From positions 1 to 33,482 of the forward strand of contig CAMBQF010000018.1 in the NCBI GenBank assembly GCA_945869825.1: a stretch of DNA of 33,482 bases, written 5' to 3'. The position numbers and the translations under genes were made by a program. This DNA comes from Chitinophaga pinensis (GTDB lineage Bacteria > Bacteroidota > Bacteroidia > CAMBQF01). A model generated the notes under the pieces. The model had not been told where the DNA came from and ran no database searches. It was given only the letters and a program-made list of their open reading frames with translations. The stretch's first letter is position 1; the number at the start of each line of letters is the position of its first letter. Shown here piece after piece: positions 2,208 to 32,262 of the stretch.

Positions 2208-2645
2208 ATGGAAAAGCAAGAAGATAATTTTAAGCATAAAACCCCGGTACAAATCCGCTTTGTTGATACCGATATGTTGGGCCATGTAAACAACTCTATA
2301 TACCTGAGCTTTATGGAGTATGCCCGTATAAATTATTTTCGTGCGGTGCTGGGTGCCAATGTAAATTGGAACTCGCGCGGTATCATTGTAGCCAAGGCTG
2401 TTATCGATTATAAAATCCCCATTTTCTTCCGCGATAACCTTATCGTAAAAACCCGAGTATCAAGGCTTGGCAAAAAAAGCTTTGACATGGAATACCAGCT
2501 TATCCACATCACCCCTGAAAAAAAGGAAGTGCTTAAAGCTACGGGTGTTACTGTTATGGTTTGCTATAACTACGAGGAGAATAAGACCATTGAAATTCCA
2601 GCTGAGTGGCGCGAAAAAATCGCCAAGCTAGAGGGCTTGGATTAG
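2208..2645 (+). CDS. Acyl-CoA thioesterase, YbgC/FadM-like 4HBT hotdog family
   Basis: This 145-residue protein is a single-domain hotdog thioesterase that probably hydrolyses acyl-CoA or acyl-carrier thioesters in the cytoplasm. The signature is VDTDMLGHVNN at 19-29 followed by Y32 and E37. Asp22 is the second Asp of the DTD motif and aligns with catalytic Asp18 of E. coli YbgC. The length is typical. An exact -7 box 21 nt upstream supports the ATG at 2208. The gene is divergent from murQ and its stop overlaps the stop of the convergent DedA gene. The physiological substrate cannot be read from the sequence. Confidence 0.85.
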   Translation: MEKQEDNFKHKTPVQIRFVDTDMLGHVNNSIYLSFMEYARINYFRAVLGANVNWNSRGIIVAKAVIDYKIPIFFRDNLIVKTRVSRLGKKSFDMEYQLIHITPEKKEVLKATGVTVMVCYNYEENKTIEIPAEWREKIAKLEGLD

Positions 2646-3295
2646 TCTTTCACTTTCTTTCTGCTATCTACCCAGCCTTTAATTATTTGGTATACCATAG
2701 GTAATACTGATACAAATACAATACCTATGGCAATTAGGTCTATGTGCTCTTTTACCCATTTAATATTGCCAAGTAGGTAGCCTGCAACGGTAATGCTTGT
2801 AATCCATACAATGCCGCCCAGTATATCATAAGGTAAAAAGCGGCGATATTTCATTTCGCCGACACCGGCAACAAATGGCGCAATGGTGCGTACTATAGGC
2901 ACAAAACGGGCAACAATAATAGTGCGGGTACCATACTTTTCGTAAAAGGCATGTGTTTTATCCAGCCACTCCTTTTTTACAATGGGCTTACCTCTAAACT
3001 TCCAACCAACAACCTTGTGCCCAAAATATTTTCCTATAAAGTAGTTAGTGTTATCGCCTACTACAGCGGCTATAATCAGCAGTATTATTAGCAAAGGCAG
3101 GTTTAACCCACCTCCGGCAGCTACTACGCCTGCGCAAAACAATAGTGAGTCGCCTGGTAAAAAAGGCCATATAACAAGCCCGGTTTCAATAAATATGATG
3201 GCAAATAATATGGCATATACCCAATAGTCATAAATGGCTATTAGTTCCCAAATTTTAACATCTATATTCTTAAAGTAATCTAAATATTCGTGCAT
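2642..3295 (-). CDS. DedA family membrane protein
   Basis: This 217-residue protein belongs to the DedA/SNARE-associated (VTT) family of polytopic inner-membrane proteins, members of which are implicated in undecaprenyl-phosphate or phospholipid translocation. Hydrophobic segments cover roughly 20-45, 50-80, 130-155 and 175-205. The conserved ETGLVIWPFLPGDSLLF stretch (37-53) and the region around FRGKPIVKKEWL and RFVPIVRTIAPFVAGVG are hallmarks of the family. The start at 3295 is the only in-frame Met near the N-terminus. A terminator-like hairpin on the same strand ends 8 nt before this start, so the gene is probably not simply the tail of the upstream operon. The 3' end overlaps the thioesterase stop by 4 nt. 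The transported lipid is unknown. Confidence 0.9.
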   Translation of the reverse strand: MHEYLDYFKNIDVKIWELIAIYDYWVYAILFAIIFIETGLVIWPFLPGDSLLFCAGVVAAGGGLNLPLLIILLIIAAVVGDNTNYFIGKYFGHKVVGWKFRGKPIVKKEWLDKTHAFYEKYGTRTIIVARFVPIVRTIAPFVAGVGEMKYRRFLPYDILGGIVWITSITVAGYLLGNIKWVKEHIDLIAIGIVFVSVLPMVYQIIKGWVDSRKKVKD

Positions 3296-3303
3296 GCTAT
3301 ACG

Positions 3304-3326
3304 TTAAAAAAGCCCATGCAGGGCTT
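3304..3326 (-). terminator. Intrinsic terminator after the TPR-comA-rhodanese operon
   Basis: On the minus strand a 6-bp stem AAGCCC / GGGCTT with loop TGCAT is followed by a run of T residues. It lies 43 nt beyond the rhodanese stop and only 8 nt before the DedA start codon, so it could also act as an attenuator or block initiation of dedA. Confidence 0.65.
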
Positions 3327-3369: not shown

Positions 3370-3687
3370 TTATGATACAGTTATCGATTGGTCAATTTCT
3401 TTGCTCCATGCTATAATACCGCCTTTAAGGTTGTAAAGGTTTGTAAAACCATATTGCCTCTCCAGTGCGTCAACAATTGCCCCACTGCGGCCACCGCTGC
3501 GGCAATGGATAATTACTGGCAAATCGCGCGATATGTTATCAATATTAGCAACTACAAGGCCCATAGGTATATGCTCGCCACCAATAGAAGCGGCATCAAC
3601 TTCGGCTTGCTCGCGCACATCAATCAACTGGTGTGGCTCATTATTATCGCGCATGGTTTTTAATTCCGCTACGGTTACTTCTTTCAT
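3370..3687 (-). CDS. Single-domain rhodanese-like sulfurtransferase
   Basis: This 105-residue protein is one rhodanese domain without a signal peptide, so it is likely cytoplasmic. The active-site loop HCRSGGRSG places the persulfide-forming Cys at 62, and the upstream LIDVRE (21-26) is the usual strand and Asp-Val-Arg motif. Single-domain rhodaneses of this kind (GlpE/PspE-like) move sulfane sulfur from thiosulfate or other donors to thiophilic acceptors. It starts 11 nt after the stop of the ComA-like gene and is the last gene of the operon before a terminator. Its partner is unknown. Co-transcription with an enzyme that consumes sulfite suggests, but does not show, a sulfur-related role. 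Confidence 0.87.
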   Translation of the reverse strand: MKEVTVAELKTMRDNNEPHQLIDVREQAEVDAASIGGEHIPMGLVVANIDNISRDLPVIIHCRSGGRSGAIVDALERQYGFTNLYNLKGGIIAWSKEIDQSITVS

Positions 3688-3698
3688 ATCAAACTGTA

Positions 3699-4532
3699 TT
3701 ATACTTTTTCTTTTGATTTCTTAGTAGTTTTTTCATCTACAGACTCAGCTGTTATCTTCAGCTTTTTAAGGTTATCTGGCAAATAGCTGAAGAAGGTATC
3801 GCCGCGTAAACCTAAACGAAGGGTTTCTAAAGGAATTACCTCTTCAGGCGATATGTTGCCAAGGTTAACCTCAGCGCCCAATAGTTTAATAAACCATGCT
3901 TGCTGGGCTTTAATCGGAGCTTCCCAAATAATATTTTCAGCCTTTACCTTATCAATAATTTTATTTACTAACTGAACGTGAGCATTTCCATTAGGGCGGT
4001 AAATTCCAACATTGCCACTTTCGCGAGCTTCAGCAATCACTTTCCAGGACCCCGCTTGCAGCTCTGTTAACATCATGCTAATCCACATCTTCGGGGCAAT
4101 TAATATACCAGCTTCTTTAGAACCTACCTCGCTAACTACTGTAAATTCTTTAGATAGGCGATGGATGTAATCACATTTAATATCGTGCGGTAATATTATT
4201 GATCCATCTGATACTTCTGCCGTATCCAGCTTAAGGTCTGTTATCAGCTTACGGTATTCGTCAAACTTCTTGCGCACAACAAAAGCCTCAAATAAGGTGC
4301 CGCCAAGATATACCTTAAAGCCCGCATCTTTATATAAGGCTATTTTATCTTTTACCCTTGGGGTAACCATAGAGGTGCCAAAACCTAACTTCACAATATC
4401 TATCAATTCGCCCGATATGCTAATCATATCTTCTGCCTGGCGCAGGCTTAAGCCCTTATCCATTACCATGGTAAGGCCTTGCTTACGCGGTCGCTTGCTG
4501 CGAGCCGGTATAAAGTCTAATTTATCTAACAT
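3699..4532 (-). CDS. ComA-like (2R)-phospho-3-sulfolactate synthase
   Basis: This is a 277-residue protein of the phosphosulfolactate synthase (ComA) family, TIM-barrel enzymes that add sulfite to phosphoenolpyruvate to give phosphosulfolactate, the first step of coenzyme M synthesis in methanogens. Family features in order are KPRKQG-like TMVMDKGL near the N-terminus, IDIVKLGFGTS, VYLGGTLFEAF, EVSDGSI, EVGSKE, EARESGNVGIYR, WEAPIKAQQ and LGLRGDTF near the C-terminus. Bacteroidota do not make coenzyme M, so the product probably feeds another sulfonate such as sulfolactate or a lipid precursor; that is inference. It starts 3 nt after the stop of the TPR gene and is followed at 11 nt by the rhodanese gene. 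The last 15 residues are a Lys/Thr-rich tail beyond the barrel. Confidence 0.86.
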   Translation of the reverse strand: MLDKLDFIPARSKRPRKQGLTMVMDKGLSLRQAEDMISISGELIDIVKLGFGTSMVTPRVKDKIALYKDAGFKVYLGGTLFEAFVVRKKFDEYRKLITDLKLDTAEVSDGSIILPHDIKCDYIHRLSKEFTVVSEVGSKEAGILIAPKMWISMMLTELQAGSWKVIAEARESGNVGIYRPNGNAHVQLVNKIIDKVKAENIIWEAPIKAQQAWFIKLLGAEVNLGNISPEEVIPLETLRLGLRGDTFFSYLPDNLKKLKITAESVDEKTTKKSKEKV

Positions 4533-4535
4533 AAC

Positions 4536-5939
4536 TTACTGTTTGTATACTTCAAGCATTTCTAACAATGCCTGATTATTTTGCAGCGAAGGTACAATTT
4601 CAAATGCTTCAATGTACTTTTCGTAGTCGTTTGCAAGGGCTTCTTCAAATACCTGCATCCCCTGTTTCTCGCTACCTGCCTCAATTAGCAGGGCTGCAAG
4701 CTTAAAATAAATTGTTGTGTTATGGGGTTGCACTTTTATCCCTTCAAGGCAGCTTTCTATAGCTTCCTCCAGTTTTTCGTTCCTAAATAATATGGTTACA
4801 TAGTCGCCCCAAATATCTTCATTATCAGGCTCAAACTCAGTTACTAGGCGGTATGCTTTTTCTCCTTCTTCAAAAAAGTCGTTTTTAAGGTATAAGTCAC
4901 CAAGTATGTACCAGTATTCAGCATTTTCTGGGTCAATAGCTACAGCCTTTTGCAGGTGGTGTATTGCCTCGGTATTGCGGTTAAGCCCGTCTAAAACCAC
5001 GCCCATTCCACACCATGCCTCTGCCAGCGCGGGGTCGGCTTTTATTGCCTTATGGAAGTATTTTAATGCCCTGTCGGTGTCGTTAAGGTTTTCATAGCAT
5101 TCTGCTATATATTGGAATGATATTGGGTCGGGTTCCTCATATTTAAAGGTTTCCTGATACGTTTCTATTGCGTCGTTAAACCGCTCAAGATTAGCCAAGG
5201 CATTTGCCTTGTTAAAATAGGCTGATGAGAACTCTTCGTTTATCAGTATAGCATAATCGTAAGCCTGTATGGCAGTTTCGTATTTTTCCTGCTTGCTGTA
5301 AAACAATCCAAGGTTATACCATGCCGCGGCAGAGTAGGGTTTATCGTCGGTAAGCATTGTGTAGTATTCAACCCCTGCCTGGTATTGCTCTGTCAAATCA
5401 AAGCAAAAGGCAATTTCGTACATGGCCGCCTCGTTATCAGGGTTTAGGCTTACCGCTTTCTTAAGGTGCTCTACGGCTTTATCATACCGCCCCAGGTTTT
5501 CATACTCAAATGCTATGTATAAGTGAACCTCGTCGGCATCATCGCCTGCTCGGTCTATGGCTTTGTTATAATAAACAATAGCTTCGCCAGTCCTGTCCAT
5601 CTGGCTTAGTATGCTGCCTTTTGTCAGGTACACCTCATAATTGTCAGGCTCTATAGCTTCCAGGGTATTTATTAATTCCAAAGCCTGCACATTTTTGCCT
5701 GTGGCCGCAAATAACTGCGCCTTACGCATTTGCAGTATTGATGTGTAAGGGTGCTGCTCTTCAGCAACCAATATAGTATCTAAGGCTTCGTAAGGTTTGT
5801 TCTGCCGTATGTAATATTCTACAATGCTTTCAAATGTTTCTACATCGTAATAAGGCACCCGCCCTTCTTTCATCCTCTTTTCAAAGTCTTTAATGCGCTC
5901 CGCATCAAATTCTTCAGGTTGTTCATATTCTTCGCCCAT
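4536..5939 (-). CDS. Cytoplasmic tetratricopeptide repeat protein (about 12 TPRs)
   Basis: The 467-residue protein consists almost entirely of TPR units with the repeating pattern W/Y-x2-L/I-G-x2-Y ... A-x3-Y/F-x2-A-x4-P, for example around AWYNLGLFYSKQEKYETAIQAYDYA and AEYWYILGDLYLKND. A very acidic N-terminal leader (MGEEYEQPEEFDAERIKDFE) precedes the first repeat, and there is no signal peptide or membrane segment. Such solenoids are protein-binding scaffolds; the partner cannot be deduced. It is the first gene of the operon with the ComA-like synthase and rhodanese. Its upstream region holds a promoter-like pair and two inverted repeats, so the regulation of the whole operon probably acts here. 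Confidence 0.87.
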   Translation of the reverse strand: MGEEYEQPEEFDAERIKDFEKRMKEGRVPYYDVETFESIVEYYIRQNKPYEALDTILVAEEQHPYTSILQMRKAQLFAATGKNVQALELINTLEAIEPDNYEVYLTKGSILSQMDRTGEAIVYYNKAIDRAGDDADEVHLYIAFEYENLGRYDKAVEHLKKAVSLNPDNEAAMYEIAFCFDLTEQYQAGVEYYTMLTDDKPYSAAAWYNLGLFYSKQEKYETAIQAYDYAILINEEFSSAYFNKANALANLERFNDAIETYQETFKYEEPDPISFQYIAECYENLNDTDRALKYFHKAIKADPALAEAWCGMGVVLDGLNRNTEAIHHLQKAVAIDPENAEYWYILGDLYLKNDFFEEGEKAYRLVTEFEPDNEDIWGDYVTILFRNEKLEEAIESCLEGIKVQPHNTTIYFKLAALLIEAGSEKQGMQVFEEALANDYEKYIEAFEIVPSLQNNQALLEMLEVYKQ

Positions 5940-5960
5940 TACAGAACTTATTGGTTCTTA

Positions 5961-5991
5961 CAAATTTTATTAAACCACTTGGTTTTCGCAA
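5961..5991 (-). promoter_or_regulatory. Candidate promoter of the TPR-comA-rhodanese operon
   Basis: Read on the minus strand, TTG (5991-5989) is followed after 20 nt by AAAATTTG (5968-5961), a one-mismatch match to TAnnTTTG, ending 21 nt before the ATG at 5939. Spacing and distance equal those at two other promoters in the window. Confidence 0.45.
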
Positions 5992-5996
5992 GTGGT
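5974..5996. promoter_or_regulatory. Inverted repeat overlapping the operon promoter
   Basis: ACCACTT (5974-5980) and AAGTGGT (5990-5996) form a 7-bp inverted repeat with a 9-nt centre. It covers the -33 TTG and most of the spacer of the candidate promoter, a position suited to a repressor site. It could also simply be a weak hairpin. Confidence 0.4.
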
Positions 5997-6010
5997 AGTT
6001 ATCAACGCAC

Positions 6011-6032
6011 ATTGTTGTTTATAAACAACAAT
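6011..6032. promoter_or_regulatory. Perfect 22-bp palindrome upstream of the TPR operon
   Basis: ATTGTTGTTTA (6011-6021) is followed immediately by its exact reverse complement TAAACAACAAT (6022-6032). It lies about 20 bp upstream of the candidate -33 element of the TPR operon. A gapless palindrome is typical of a dimeric regulator site rather than of a terminator. The regulator is unknown. Confidence 0.5.
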
Positions 6033-29663: not shown

Positions 29664-30953
29664 TTAAGATAATTTAGCTAACGCGCTGCGTAGGTTTTCA
29701 ATAATCGAATCTATTTCTTCTTTTTTGCTTACACCAACAGAAATTCGGTACCATGGAGAATTATCGCCAGAACCGAAGGCATAAAAAGGTACAATAGCCA
29801 GTTTAGCCTCGTTTAGCAGGTACGATGTAATATCTTTTGTTGTTTCTAATACTTTACCATCTGCTTTTTTCATGCCGTGTAGGTTAAACTTAACAGTAAG
29901 GTATATTGCAGCTTGTGGTGATATTGCATCTACTTTAAATCCTTCGGCCTTAAGTGCTGAAAAGCCTTTGTAAAACTCAACCAACCTGTAGTTTAGTTCA
30001 TCTTTAAAGTTTTCAAGGTAAGCATCAACCGCTGCATCGTTTTTAAGAAATTTTGCTGTAGCAATTTGCTCAGCCTTAGGCGACCATGCTCCAACGTGGG
30101 TCAGTATCGATTTCATTTTATCGATAATGTATTTGCTGCCGAAAGACCAGCCAACTCTTACGCCAGTAGCGGCAAAGGTTTTAGAAAGTCCATCAATAAA
30201 CACGGTATAATCGCGCAGTTCGGGGCGCAGGCTAATAGGGTCGTAATGTTTAGTTTCACCATAAGTAAGTGCCCAGTAAATCTGGTCGTACATTAGGTAT
30301 AGTGGTTTTTCTTTTGGTCCACGGCGATTATTTTCTTCTACTACCAAATCGCAAATAGCTTCCAGGCCTTCTTTGGTAAAGGTGGTGCCGGTTGGGTTTA
30401 GCGGAGAGCATAATGCCAGCAAAGTAGCTTCTTGTAAGTAAGGCCGTATCTCATCGGCTGTTGGCATAAAATTATTTTCGGCACGTGTCTCAATCATTAT
30501 TGGCCTGGCGCCAGAAAGGTGGCAATAGTGGTTATTGTTCCACGATGGGGTTGGAAATATCACCGCATCTCCCGGGTCAATAACAGCCATGTATAATGAG
30601 TAAATCAGCGGACGGGCTCCAGCTGATATTAAAATCTCTTCAGTATCAAACGTAACACCTTGCACCCTTTGCAAAAAATGGGCAACTGCGGTGCGCAGTT
30701 CTAGCATGCCGTTAGCGGCAGGGTAGTTGGTTTGGTTATTATCTAATGCAAGTTTTATTTCCTCCCTAAGTAATTCAGGTATAGGGAAGATATTCGAATC
30801 AAAGTCGCCAATAGTAAGGTTATACACCTTTTGGCCCTGTTTCATCAGCTCGTTAATTTCTGCGGCTATTCGGATAATTTCCGAGCCGATTAAATTTTCT
30901 GCCATTTGCGAAACCCTCGGCTTCGCTGCTGAGTTAGTACTGGTTAGGGTCAT
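29664..30953 (-). CDS. Class I/II PLP-dependent aminotransferase
   Basis: This fold-type I aminotransferase of the aspartate-aminotransferase family has 429 residues from ATG 30953. The PLP Schiff-base lysine is at about 258 in GLSKTFAATGVRVGW. Other landmarks are NLTIGDFDSNIFP, NNQTNYPAANGMLELRTAVA, ALCSPLNPTGTTF and the final RISVGVSKKEEIDSII. The frame is open to 31097, but an ideal promoter (TTG, 20 nt, TACATTTG) ends 19 nt before ATG 30953. That start gives the usual N-terminus, and the upstream codons overlap the neighbouring gene's end, so the shorter form is preferred. It heads a pair with manC. The amino-acid substrate is not readable. Confidence 0.92.
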   Translation of the reverse strand: MTLTSTNSAAKPRVSQMAENLIGSEIIRIAAEINELMKQGQKVYNLTIGDFDSNIFPIPELLREEIKLALDNNQTNYPAANGMLELRTAVAHFLQRVQGVTFDTEEILISAGARPLIYSLYMAVIDPGDAVIFPTPSWNNNHYCHLSGARPIMIETRAENNFMPTADEIRPYLQEATLLALCSPLNPTGTTFTKEGLEAICDLVVEENNRRGPKEKPLYLMYDQIYWALTYGETKHYDPISLRPELRDYTVFIDGLSKTFAATGVRVGWSFGSKYIIDKMKSILTHVGAWSPKAEQIATAKFLKNDAAVDAYLENFKDELNYRLVEFYKGFSALKAEGFKVDAISPQAAIYLTVKFNLHGMKKADGKVLETTKDITSYLLNEAKLAIVPFYAFGSGDNSPWYRISVGVSKKEEIDSIIENLRSALAKLS

Positions 30954-30972
30954 AAGGCTGTGCAATTTGGCG

Positions 30973-31003
30973 CAAATGTAGCCAAAATTAGCCACTTTGC
31001 CAA
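30973..31003 (-). promoter_or_regulatory. Promoter of the aminotransferase-manC operon
   Basis: On the minus strand TTG (31003-31001), 20 nt, and TACATTTG (30980-30973) form a full match to the Bacteroidota pattern. It ends 19 nt before ATG 30953 and fixes that start. Confidence 0.7.
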
Positions 31004-31044
31004 GCGTGTTAATAAGTATGGTTTTGCCTTTATGGTATTGATAA

Positions 31045-32262
31045 TCAATCCTTAAACGGGTTTCTCTTTTTCCACTCGTAGCCGCGTTCGGTGGCAAAGG
31101 CTTTAAGCATGTACTTTAAACCCAATTGCATGGGTTTGCTTTTTAGTTTGATGTAATTGTCAAGATATACAGGTTTACAGCCTATAATGGCTTTAGCTTC
31201 TAAGGCTGTGCGGCCTAGTTTTAACGTGTTTTTATGCAACAAGATACTGCGTTCAACACCGTGTAATAATATATTTGGGTATATGCAATATGTTTTGTTA
31301 TCAGCTTCAGAGTACCCTATGTAGTAAACTTCATAATCGCCATTTTCTATTACCGATGTGGTAAAAGCCATCATTTTATCCCCTTTAAACCAGCCCCAAA
31401 CCTCAAATTTTTCACCAAGCACGTTTTTCATATTTACGAAGTAATCGCCATTTAGTATTCCTATTTTAACTGACGAGTGGCCGCAAACATCAAGGTAAAG
31501 GCGTTCAATATCGGGCAAGTATGCTTCAATTTCGGATAGGTTTAGCAGGCGCGTAGTTAATTCCCAGCGCCCTACCTGCATTTTTTTTATGCGGGCTACG
31601 TATTTTTTTGTCAGGCTTTTAGTATAGTCGTCAAGTGTTTTCCAACCAGGGTTTAAGGTCATTTGCATAAAAATATCTTCGCCCATATGGGTAAAGCCCC
31701 AGTTCTTTGTTTCCAGTTGTTTTTTTAGCTGCACATCAACATCTTTAAGCATTAAGGCAGATGACTTTGTGGCAGATAGTAACTTATTGATAGCTTGCTT
31801 AAATGCTTTGTAAAATATATCGCTACTAATTGCCTGATTATTGAACCAATATGAAGGAAAACCTGTGTAGAAAAGGTTGCCCGCTACCAACAAGCCATAG
31901 CTTCGTTTTGATACTGTTTTATATACATGCCCCGCTATAGTGCCGGTGTTTGAAAAATCAGGGTAGTGGTCTTTATTAACCGCAAGGCGTTGCAGATACA
32001 TACCGCCAACCATGACTCCATTAACAGTTAAAACTCCGTAATAGTGGGTCAGATTGTCAATTTTACTATCTTCAATATAAGCAAGGTTGGCCGTTTTAAA
32101 TTTATGCCCTGCAGGTAACATCACATCCCAAGCCGTCGGTAATTGCTTATACGACTGAAAAATCTCTACCGATATAGATAAGCTTGGTGCTGGCGAGCAT
32201 ATTATGCTGGCAAAACAACTTTGGGCCTCTATTCTTATCGGATTTAATGATTGTATACTCAC
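31045..32262 (-). CDS. FemAB/GNAT-like acyltransferase
   Basis: The 405-residue soluble protein looks like a FemAB-like double-GNAT protein (peptidoglycan bridge or related acyl/aminoacyl transfer). Supporting stretches are an N-terminal half with SVEIFQSYKQLPTAWDVMLP, the basic KSLTKKYVARIKKMQVGRWE (like the FemAB linker), and a second GNAT half with FEVWGWFKGDKMMAFTTSVIENGDYEVYYIGY and the family-typical TLKLGRTALEAKAIIGCKPV. No Fem-type tRNA-binding coiled coil is obvious. The start is GTG 32262, supported by an exact -7 box 16 nt upstream (TAGCTTTG). It is divergent from the ribosomal protein operon. The substrate is unknown and the family assignment rests on pattern only. Confidence 0.75.
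   Translation of the reverse strand: MSIQSLNPIRIEAQSCFASIICSPAPSLSISVEIFQSYKQLPTAWDVMLPAGHKFKTANLAYIEDSKIDNLTHYYGVLTVNGVMVGGMYLQRLAVNKDHYPDFSNTGTIAGHVYKTVSKRSYGLLVAGNLFYTGFPSYWFNNQAISSDIFYKAFKQAINKLLSATKSSALMLKDVDVQLKKQLETKNWGFTHMGEDIFMQMTLNPGWKTLDDYTKSLTKKYVARIKKMQVGRWELTTRLLNLSEIEAYLPDIERLYLDVCGHSSVKIGILNGDYFVNMKNVLGEKFEVWGWFKGDKMMAFTTSVIENGDYEVYYIGYSEADNKTYCIYPNILLHGVERSILLHKNTLKLGRTALEAKAIIGCKPVYLDNYIKLKSKPMQLGLKYMLKAFATERGYEWKKRNPFKD

Follow-up and report, generated by a model that had tools for sequence, protein, structure and literature searches.

A ComA-type phosphosulfolactate synthase of Bacteroidota and a possible third route to the cysteate of sulfonolipids

The window analysed here is a stretch of 33,482 nt (contig CAMBQF010000018.1) from a genome assigned to Chitinophaga pinensis (G000; 2.98 Mb, 189 contigs, 99.8% complete), and coordinates are positions in the whole window unless another locus is named. 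On its minus strand it carries three adjacent genes encoding a TPR-repeat protein, a ComA-type protein and a rhodanese. Conserved residues and the predicted fold make a convincing case that the middle gene encodes the phosphosulfolactate synthase ComA. Together with the phosphatase ComB, encoded elsewhere in the genome, this enzyme probably makes sulfolactate. We further propose, as a nearly evenly balanced possibility drawn from gene content, that this sulfolactate is oxidised and transaminated to supply the cysteate of sulfonolipids, which would constitute a third cysteate route. The sequence-only reading of the window had named a ComA-like synthase and tentatively linked it to a sulfonolipid precursor; the former is upheld by the residues and fold of the solved enzymes, and the latter is plausible in a genome that has ComB and a cysteate fatty acyltransferase and in which no CapA was found. 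The genes on which the argument turns are as follows:

3370–3687, minus strand: single-domain rhodanese, 105 aa (PF00581, 1.4e-13; active-site loop CRSGGRS)
3699–4532, minus strand: ComA-type phosphosulfolactate synthase, 277 aa (Pfam PF02679, 3.3e-87; PDB 1u83 and 1qwg; predicted fold)
4536–5939, minus strand: TPR-repeat protein, 467 aa (Pfam TPR_1, 8.1e-47)
G000:C24:8030–8695, another contig of the same genome: ComB phosphatase (PF04029, 1.4e-78)

The deduced ComA protein matched PF02679 with 292.4 bits (cut-off 25.2), covering profile positions 2–243 of 243, and PDB matches were found to YitD of B. subtilis (1u83, E 3.9e-51) and to ComA of M. jannaschii (1qwg, E 5e-43), with identities of 40% (97/241 aligned residues) and 43% (99/231), respectively. 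Forty-seven positions that the two solved synthases have in common recur in at least 95% of 83 type-A Bacteroidota proteins, and the window protein keeps them; conserved residues include K137, R170, E171, K209 and D246 (M. jannaschii numbering). The AlphaFold2 model (mean pLDDT 91.2) has a TIM-barrel fold, aligning with 1qwg over 243 residues (Z 34.1, rmsd 1.6) and with 1u83 over 225 residues (Z 32.0, rmsd 1.4). Ranked third in the structure search was 9cm1, a designed particle with a ComA chain, and the next entry, unrelated, had a Z of 14.7. In a phylogenetic tree all 43 ComA proteins of the class fall to the same side of a branch supported at 99/98 and mostly cluster with members of their own family, a pattern that fits an old, mostly vertically inherited comA gene. 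Since PF02679 is an annotated family in Bacteroidota, the gene itself is not new.

The genuine partner of ComA is ComB, which is not linked to ComA in the genome. Overlaps between the two were counted by hand in two samples. In the phylum sample (296 genomes), ComA scored over the cut-off in 75 genomes, all of which (75/75) also have ComB, and ComB was present in 161. In the class sample (247 genomes), ComA was found in 203 and ComB in 205, with both in 200 and neither in 39; the exceptions have ComA only (G341, G367 and G505) or ComB only (G261, G380, G417, G490 and G502). ComB thus occurs in 200 of the 203 ComA-positive class genomes versus 5 of the 44 ComA-negative ones (Fisher p 2.7e-36, relatedness ignored). 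The ComB of G000 matched eight NCBIfam ComB models, each below its cut-off. In 11 of 20 class loci the gene immediately ahead of ComB belongs to the gcvT family, and in 4 others a single ORF intervenes; in G000 a gcvT (glycine cleavage) gene, a name taken from this locus only, lies directly before it on contig C24 (L139:6007–7817). No sulfur gene was recognised in the ComB neighbourhoods of these 20 loci.

The genome also encodes a putative CapB/SulA-type enzyme (on G000:C130), which scored 582 bits to PDB entry 28eh ('Cysteate-C-fatty acyltransferase') and 609 to 7u7h, compared with 242 to serine palmitoyltransferase. Relatives 64–98% identical to it were found in all 12 ComA-positive genomes tested, the copy in the genus member G297 being a fragment of 305 residues. 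On the 4.16-Mb chromosome of another member of the genus (G296:C1), ComA, the acyltransferase and ComB are encoded at 2.732, 2.763 and 2.793 Mb, i.e. within about 62 kb; this proximity is not repeated in G033. A short-chain dehydrogenase is encoded near the acyltransferase at L225:1794–2564.

CapA and the archaeal-type cysteate synthase both belong to the PALP family, whose members were inventoried in 12 genomes (7 ComA-positive and 5 ComA-negative); CapA was called with the model NF053679, which has a curated cut-off of 600 bits. Among 24 PALP matches in the ComA-positive genomes, 16 were typed by model scan, in 17 rows that partly overlap in type and are not to be added up: CBS-like proteins (6), threonine ammonia-lyases (3), proteins of the ACC-deaminase type (4) and, for the rest, CysK, CysM, BhcB-like or TrpB proteins; none of those typed was CapA. 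The remaining 8 scored at most 151 bits in the PALP inventory, versus 258–271 there for the four CapA candidates. CapA was not found in G000, where both PALP matches (2/2) are of the ACC-deaminase type and no CBS is present, although an assembly gap is possible. In the ComA-negative genomes, CapA passed the cut-off in G021 (656 bits) and G029 (617), and candidates below it were present in G012 (547) and G037 (509). In three of these four, G012, G037 and G029, the CapA-type gene lies 76–223 nt upstream of the acyltransferase gene. CapA-type genes were therefore found in 0/7 ComA-positive versus 4/5 ComA-negative genomes (p 0.010).

Two further observations concern the same inventory. Three low-scoring PALP matches, in the ComA-positive genomes G080, G049 and G007, resemble ThrC in score and length, and it is conceivable that they are archaeal-type synthases. 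In G000, G296, G297 and G041 there was no TrpB-, ThrC- or IlvA-like match; amino acid synthesis is apparently reduced in these four genomes, which keep ComA, ComB and the acyltransferase.

Because ComB and the acyltransferase are present and CapA was not found in G000, the following route is proposed: 1) ComA would join sulfite to phosphoenolpyruvate (PEP), giving (2R)-phosphosulfolactate; 2) ComB would remove the phosphate, giving sulfolactate; 3) a dehydrogenase, ComC-like in many relatives and with no candidate in this genus, would oxidise sulfolactate to sulfopyruvate; 4) an aminotransferase would convert sulfopyruvate to cysteate; and 5) the CapB/SulA acyltransferase would condense cysteate with a fatty acyl group, starting sulfonolipid synthesis. 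The route would stand in for CapA, which uses phosphoserine and sulfite, in ComA-carrying Bacteroidota. From genome content (ComA, ComB and the acyltransferase present, CapA not found) we infer all of the activities, the oxidation, the transamination and the passage of cysteate to lipid. It is possible, with the balance leaning against it, that many Bacteroidota make the cysteate of their sulfonolipids in this way, from PEP and sulfite via ComA, ComB and a sulfolactate dehydrogenase, and that this is an unrecognised third route, largely exclusive with CapA. By inference, such bacteria would include Cyclobacteriaceae such as Algoriphagus, the maker of a rosette-inducing sulfonolipid. The window itself encodes an aspartate-transaminase-like aminotransferase at 29664–31097 (194 bits versus a cut-off of 617), possibly a sulfopyruvate transaminase, which nothing ties to the route.

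PF02615, the family of ComC, was found in 68 of the 247 class genomes, comprising 64/203 ComA-positive versus 4/44 ComA-negative ones (Fisher p 0.0025); the best copy scored at least 369 bits in the 64 and at most 351 in the four, a cut picked after the scores had been seen. In a set of 52 class genomes the family was present in 26 of the 31 with ComA, in G261 and in 1 of the 20 lacking both ComA and ComB. The best NCBIfam model for the Ldh_2 proteins was L-sulfolactate dehydrogenase in 3/3 cases, at 262–264 bits versus a cut-off of 500, and their nearest PDB entry was a malate dehydrogenase, followed by L-sulfolactate dehydrogenase. The neighbourhoods of ComC-family genes at two loci, in which six proteins were scanned (UPF0004/radical-SAM, BshC, NHL repeat, RNA polymerase alpha, carbamoyl-phosphate synthase and enolase), gave no clue.

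Several observations weigh against the proposed cysteate route. i) PF02615 was found in none of the three genomes of the window's own genus (G000, G296 and G297), leaving no candidate for the oxidation there, nor in 139 of the 203 ComA-positive class genomes. ii) Outside the class, genomes often have ComB but no ComA: 86 of the 161 ComB-positive genomes in the phylum sample show no ComA over the cut-off. iii) Linkage between ComA and the acyltransferase amounts to nothing beyond a proximity of 61 kb in one chromosome. iv) Only two of the four CapA calls pass the curated cut-off, and those alone give p 0.15; the candidate in G037 is 55–59% identical to other CapAs, no closer than CBS-like proteins are, and dropping it gives p 0.045. 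v) The ComA-negative genome G002 has neither ComA nor CapA, the latter not being found by model scan of one PALP protein and BLAST of three more. vi) A CBS-like protein of about 460 aa, 48–59% identical to CapAs, is present in 6 of the 7 ComA-positive genomes (G000 not among them) and might itself make cysteate. The PALP domain alone of these proteins scored 407–436 bits with the CapA model versus 387–409 with the CBS model, and the full-length protein of G041 scored higher with the CBS model (475.5 bits) than with the CapA model (459.3). CBS-like proteins of this kind are also present in ComA-negative genomes.

These points bear on the alternative that survives best, namely that the sulfolactate made by ComA and ComB is an end product (a solute, a sulfite sink or an exported sulfonate) and that the cysteate of sulfonolipids comes from elsewhere, e.g. 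from a CBS-like enzyme or by uptake. Sulfolactate in Bacillus spores is a precedent for such an end product. The near-constant pairing of ComB with ComA, set beside the missing ComC family in most ComA-positive class genomes and in the window's genus, argues for this explanation, as do the CapA-related CBS-like proteins. However, it does not account readily for the absence of CapA-type genes from all seven ComA-positive genomes when four of five ComA-negative ones have them, or for the retention of the acyltransferase in G000, with only two ACC-deaminase-type PALP proteins and no CBS. We consider an end-product role somewhat unlikely.

It is improbable that the Bacteroidota ComA has drifted away from phosphosulfolactate synthesis to some other reaction that depends on PEP or sulfite. 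Two findings that count against the enzyme assignment can be read in this way: ComA scored 252.7 bits, under the cut-off of 280, with TIGR03849, an equivalog model named for archaeal ComA, and W46 of M. jannaschii, a Trp in both solved enzymes, corresponds to F51 in the window protein, with Phe at this position in 18 of the 43 class proteins, the window's included. The plant protein Hsa32, which is related to ComA but reported to have a different role, and the divergent type-B paralogues with lost residues in other families also speak for drift. Against it stand the 47 common positions, the high structural similarity to both solved synthases and the near-strict co-occurrence with ComB. As to the type-B paralogues themselves, they are encoded after an MmgE/PrpD gene in 7 of 14 type-B loci (L125, L127, L128, L129, L130, L132 and L133). 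Their reaction may differ, since most do not have the residues K137, R170, E171, K209 and D246 that the solved synthases carry.

The three genes of the window are separated by 3 nt (TPR/ComA) and 11 nt (ComA/rhodanese), as the sequence-only reading had described; the ORFs bear this out and Pfam agrees on all three assignments. That reading had treated them as one functional unit with the TPR protein as scaffold, and had proposed a survey of gene order. Among 102 ComA loci, of which 98 were readable, 49 are of type A outside family f24 (43 of them in the class), some genomes possibly being counted twice. A TPR gene lies directly upstream of ComA in 37/49 of these, i.e. 37/43 class loci, whereas a rhodanese gene lies directly downstream in 5/49 (the window, its two genus relatives, L038 and L126). 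DUF368 or DedA is encoded within three genes of ComA in 20/49 loci, and aroE within four genes in 30/49. The order of the trio is thus kept in all three sampled genomes of the genus (3/3), which are also the only ones sampled from its order, so that the refuting condition set by the sequence-only reading, a gene order lost even among close relatives, does not apply; but the rhodanese is missing at this site in most other families.

TPR relatives, taken as best matches at E < 1e-25 with orthology not proven and identity down to 23–31% in the most distant families, were present in 52/52 class genomes, of which 31 have ComA, one (G261) has ComB but not ComA, and 20 lack both. In the stretch around the TPR gene of these 20, aroE was found downstream in 14, DUF368 in 7 and ComA in none, and in 12 of them aroE or DUF368 follows the TPR gene directly (<500 nt). 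In G002, 12 nt separate TPR from aroE, and its family includes L054, L059 and L060, which read TPR-ComA-aroE. Because the TPR-aroE/DUF368 order persists without ComA, ComA appears to have entered, or dropped out of, an older TPR-aroE string. The TPR protein is probably a bystander that stems from such an older string, TPR-(DUF368/DedA)-aroE, a conserved neighbour and not a dedicated partner, and its role as a dedicated ComA scaffold was rejected on these counts.

Thus a functional trio, with the TPR protein as scaffold for ComA and the rhodanese in charge of sulfur for the sulfonate, is very improbable, since the short gaps, the order shared by the genus members, L038 and L126, the frequent TPR-ComA adjacency and the active-site Cys kept in the rhodanese are outweighed by the TPR relatives of all 20 ComA-less genomes, the rarity of the rhodanese beside ComA and the 35 loci of family f24 in which ComA sits in a string of glycogen genes instead.

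The rhodanese scored 51.6 bits with PF00581 (cut-off 22.2), has the active-site Cys in its CRSGGRS loop and matched 8 NCBIfam models, each below its cut-off. As a general core partner it was rejected; locally it may still supply sulfite. Rhodanese chemistry is able to free sulfite from thiosulfate, and the local rhodanese may help in this way, but would be optional.

Other neighbourhoods of ComA were also noted. In family f24, which belongs to another class, the string reads branching enzyme, malQ, ComA, glgA and DUF4270 (e.g. L082:213–11058), the gene after ComA in the 35 loci belonging to the glgA cluster. Downstream of ComA, DUF368 (11 loci) and DedA (9 loci, including 2642–3295 of the window) alternate at one site and were never both found within three genes. 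They are unrelated families; DUF368 (PF04018) is tied to undecaprenyl phosphate transport by its Pfam name, and DedA, too, is linked to this transport.

Several elements flank the trio, none of which was assigned a strand unless stated:

3304–3326, minus strand: terminator-like hairpin AAGCCC-TGCAT-GGGCTT followed by a T-run, between the rhodanese gene and dedA, read by eye
5961–5969, minus strand: candidate promoter TAAAATTTG, a relaxed match to the Bacteroidota -7 element, not above chance
5974–5981/5989–5996: 8-bp inverted repeat ACCACTTG/CAAGTGGT with a 7-nt spacer, upstream of TPR
6011–6032: perfect 22-bp palindrome upstream of TPR, its core kept in L034 and L035
6073–6093, minus strand: strong hairpin 3' of the preceding T9SS gene, separating that gene from the trio

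The palindromic sites that had been described upstream of TPR are both real. The palindrome core TGTTTATAAACA is unchanged in the two genus relatives (L034 and L035), with differing outer arms, and the 8-bp repeat is intact in L035 and has a single arm base altered in L034. The hairpin after the T9SS gene separates it from the trio, which therefore plausibly has its own start region. As to the promoter and terminator also claimed, the terminator-like hairpin stood, being present in L035, absent from L034 and missed by a pattern scan, but the promoter upstream of TPR is a candidate only. No exact TAnnTTTG, which we take to be the Bacteroidota -7 motif, was found upstream of TPR, where TAAAATTTG is the only, relaxed match; sigma-70-type matches were at chance level (11 found versus 10.7 expected), and the one at 5991–5964, which overlaps the candidate region, was likewise not above chance.

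Compared with known systems, the protein shares with ComA of M. jannaschii and YitD of B. subtilis the full-length PF02679 domain, the TIM barrel and the common positions, but differs in its 43% and 40% identity, its score under the archaeal equivalog cut-off and the separation of comA from ComB; its end use is probably not coenzyme M. No Bacteroidota are known to make coenzyme M. The first two enzymes of the methanogen pathway ComA-ComB-ComC-ComDE are present here, whereas the ComC family is absent from the window's genus. The CapA-CapB-CapC capnine pathway of Capnocytophaga and Ornithobacterium (PMC10191378 and PMC12927429) shares the acyltransferase CapB, putatively encoded here, and differs in that CapA was not found in G000, where ComA and ComB are the proposed cysteate suppliers. 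Like the archaeal-type cysteate synthase of Alistipes and Odoribacter (PMC10191378), ComA and ComB would be a CapA substitute ahead of the same acyltransferase, but by another reaction, both PALP matches of G000 being of the ACC-deaminase type.

The review PMC10191378 names two cysteate sources for sulfonolipids, CapA and the archaeal-type cysteate synthase. Among the matches listed, no title or beginning of an abstract proposes a ComA route to sulfonolipids; the key capnine papers lie outside this scope and may hold the idea. Sulfonolipids have been associated with gliding, with effects on the host and with rosette formation in choanoflagellates (PMC10191378 and PMC3463246), and Salinibacter and Algoriphagus are named among the producers (PMC5591296). 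Should ComA and ComB prove to be a third source, a single deletion could test where groups lacking CapA obtain their cysteate, and a 'coenzyme M' gene that is widespread in Bacteroidota would gain a function.

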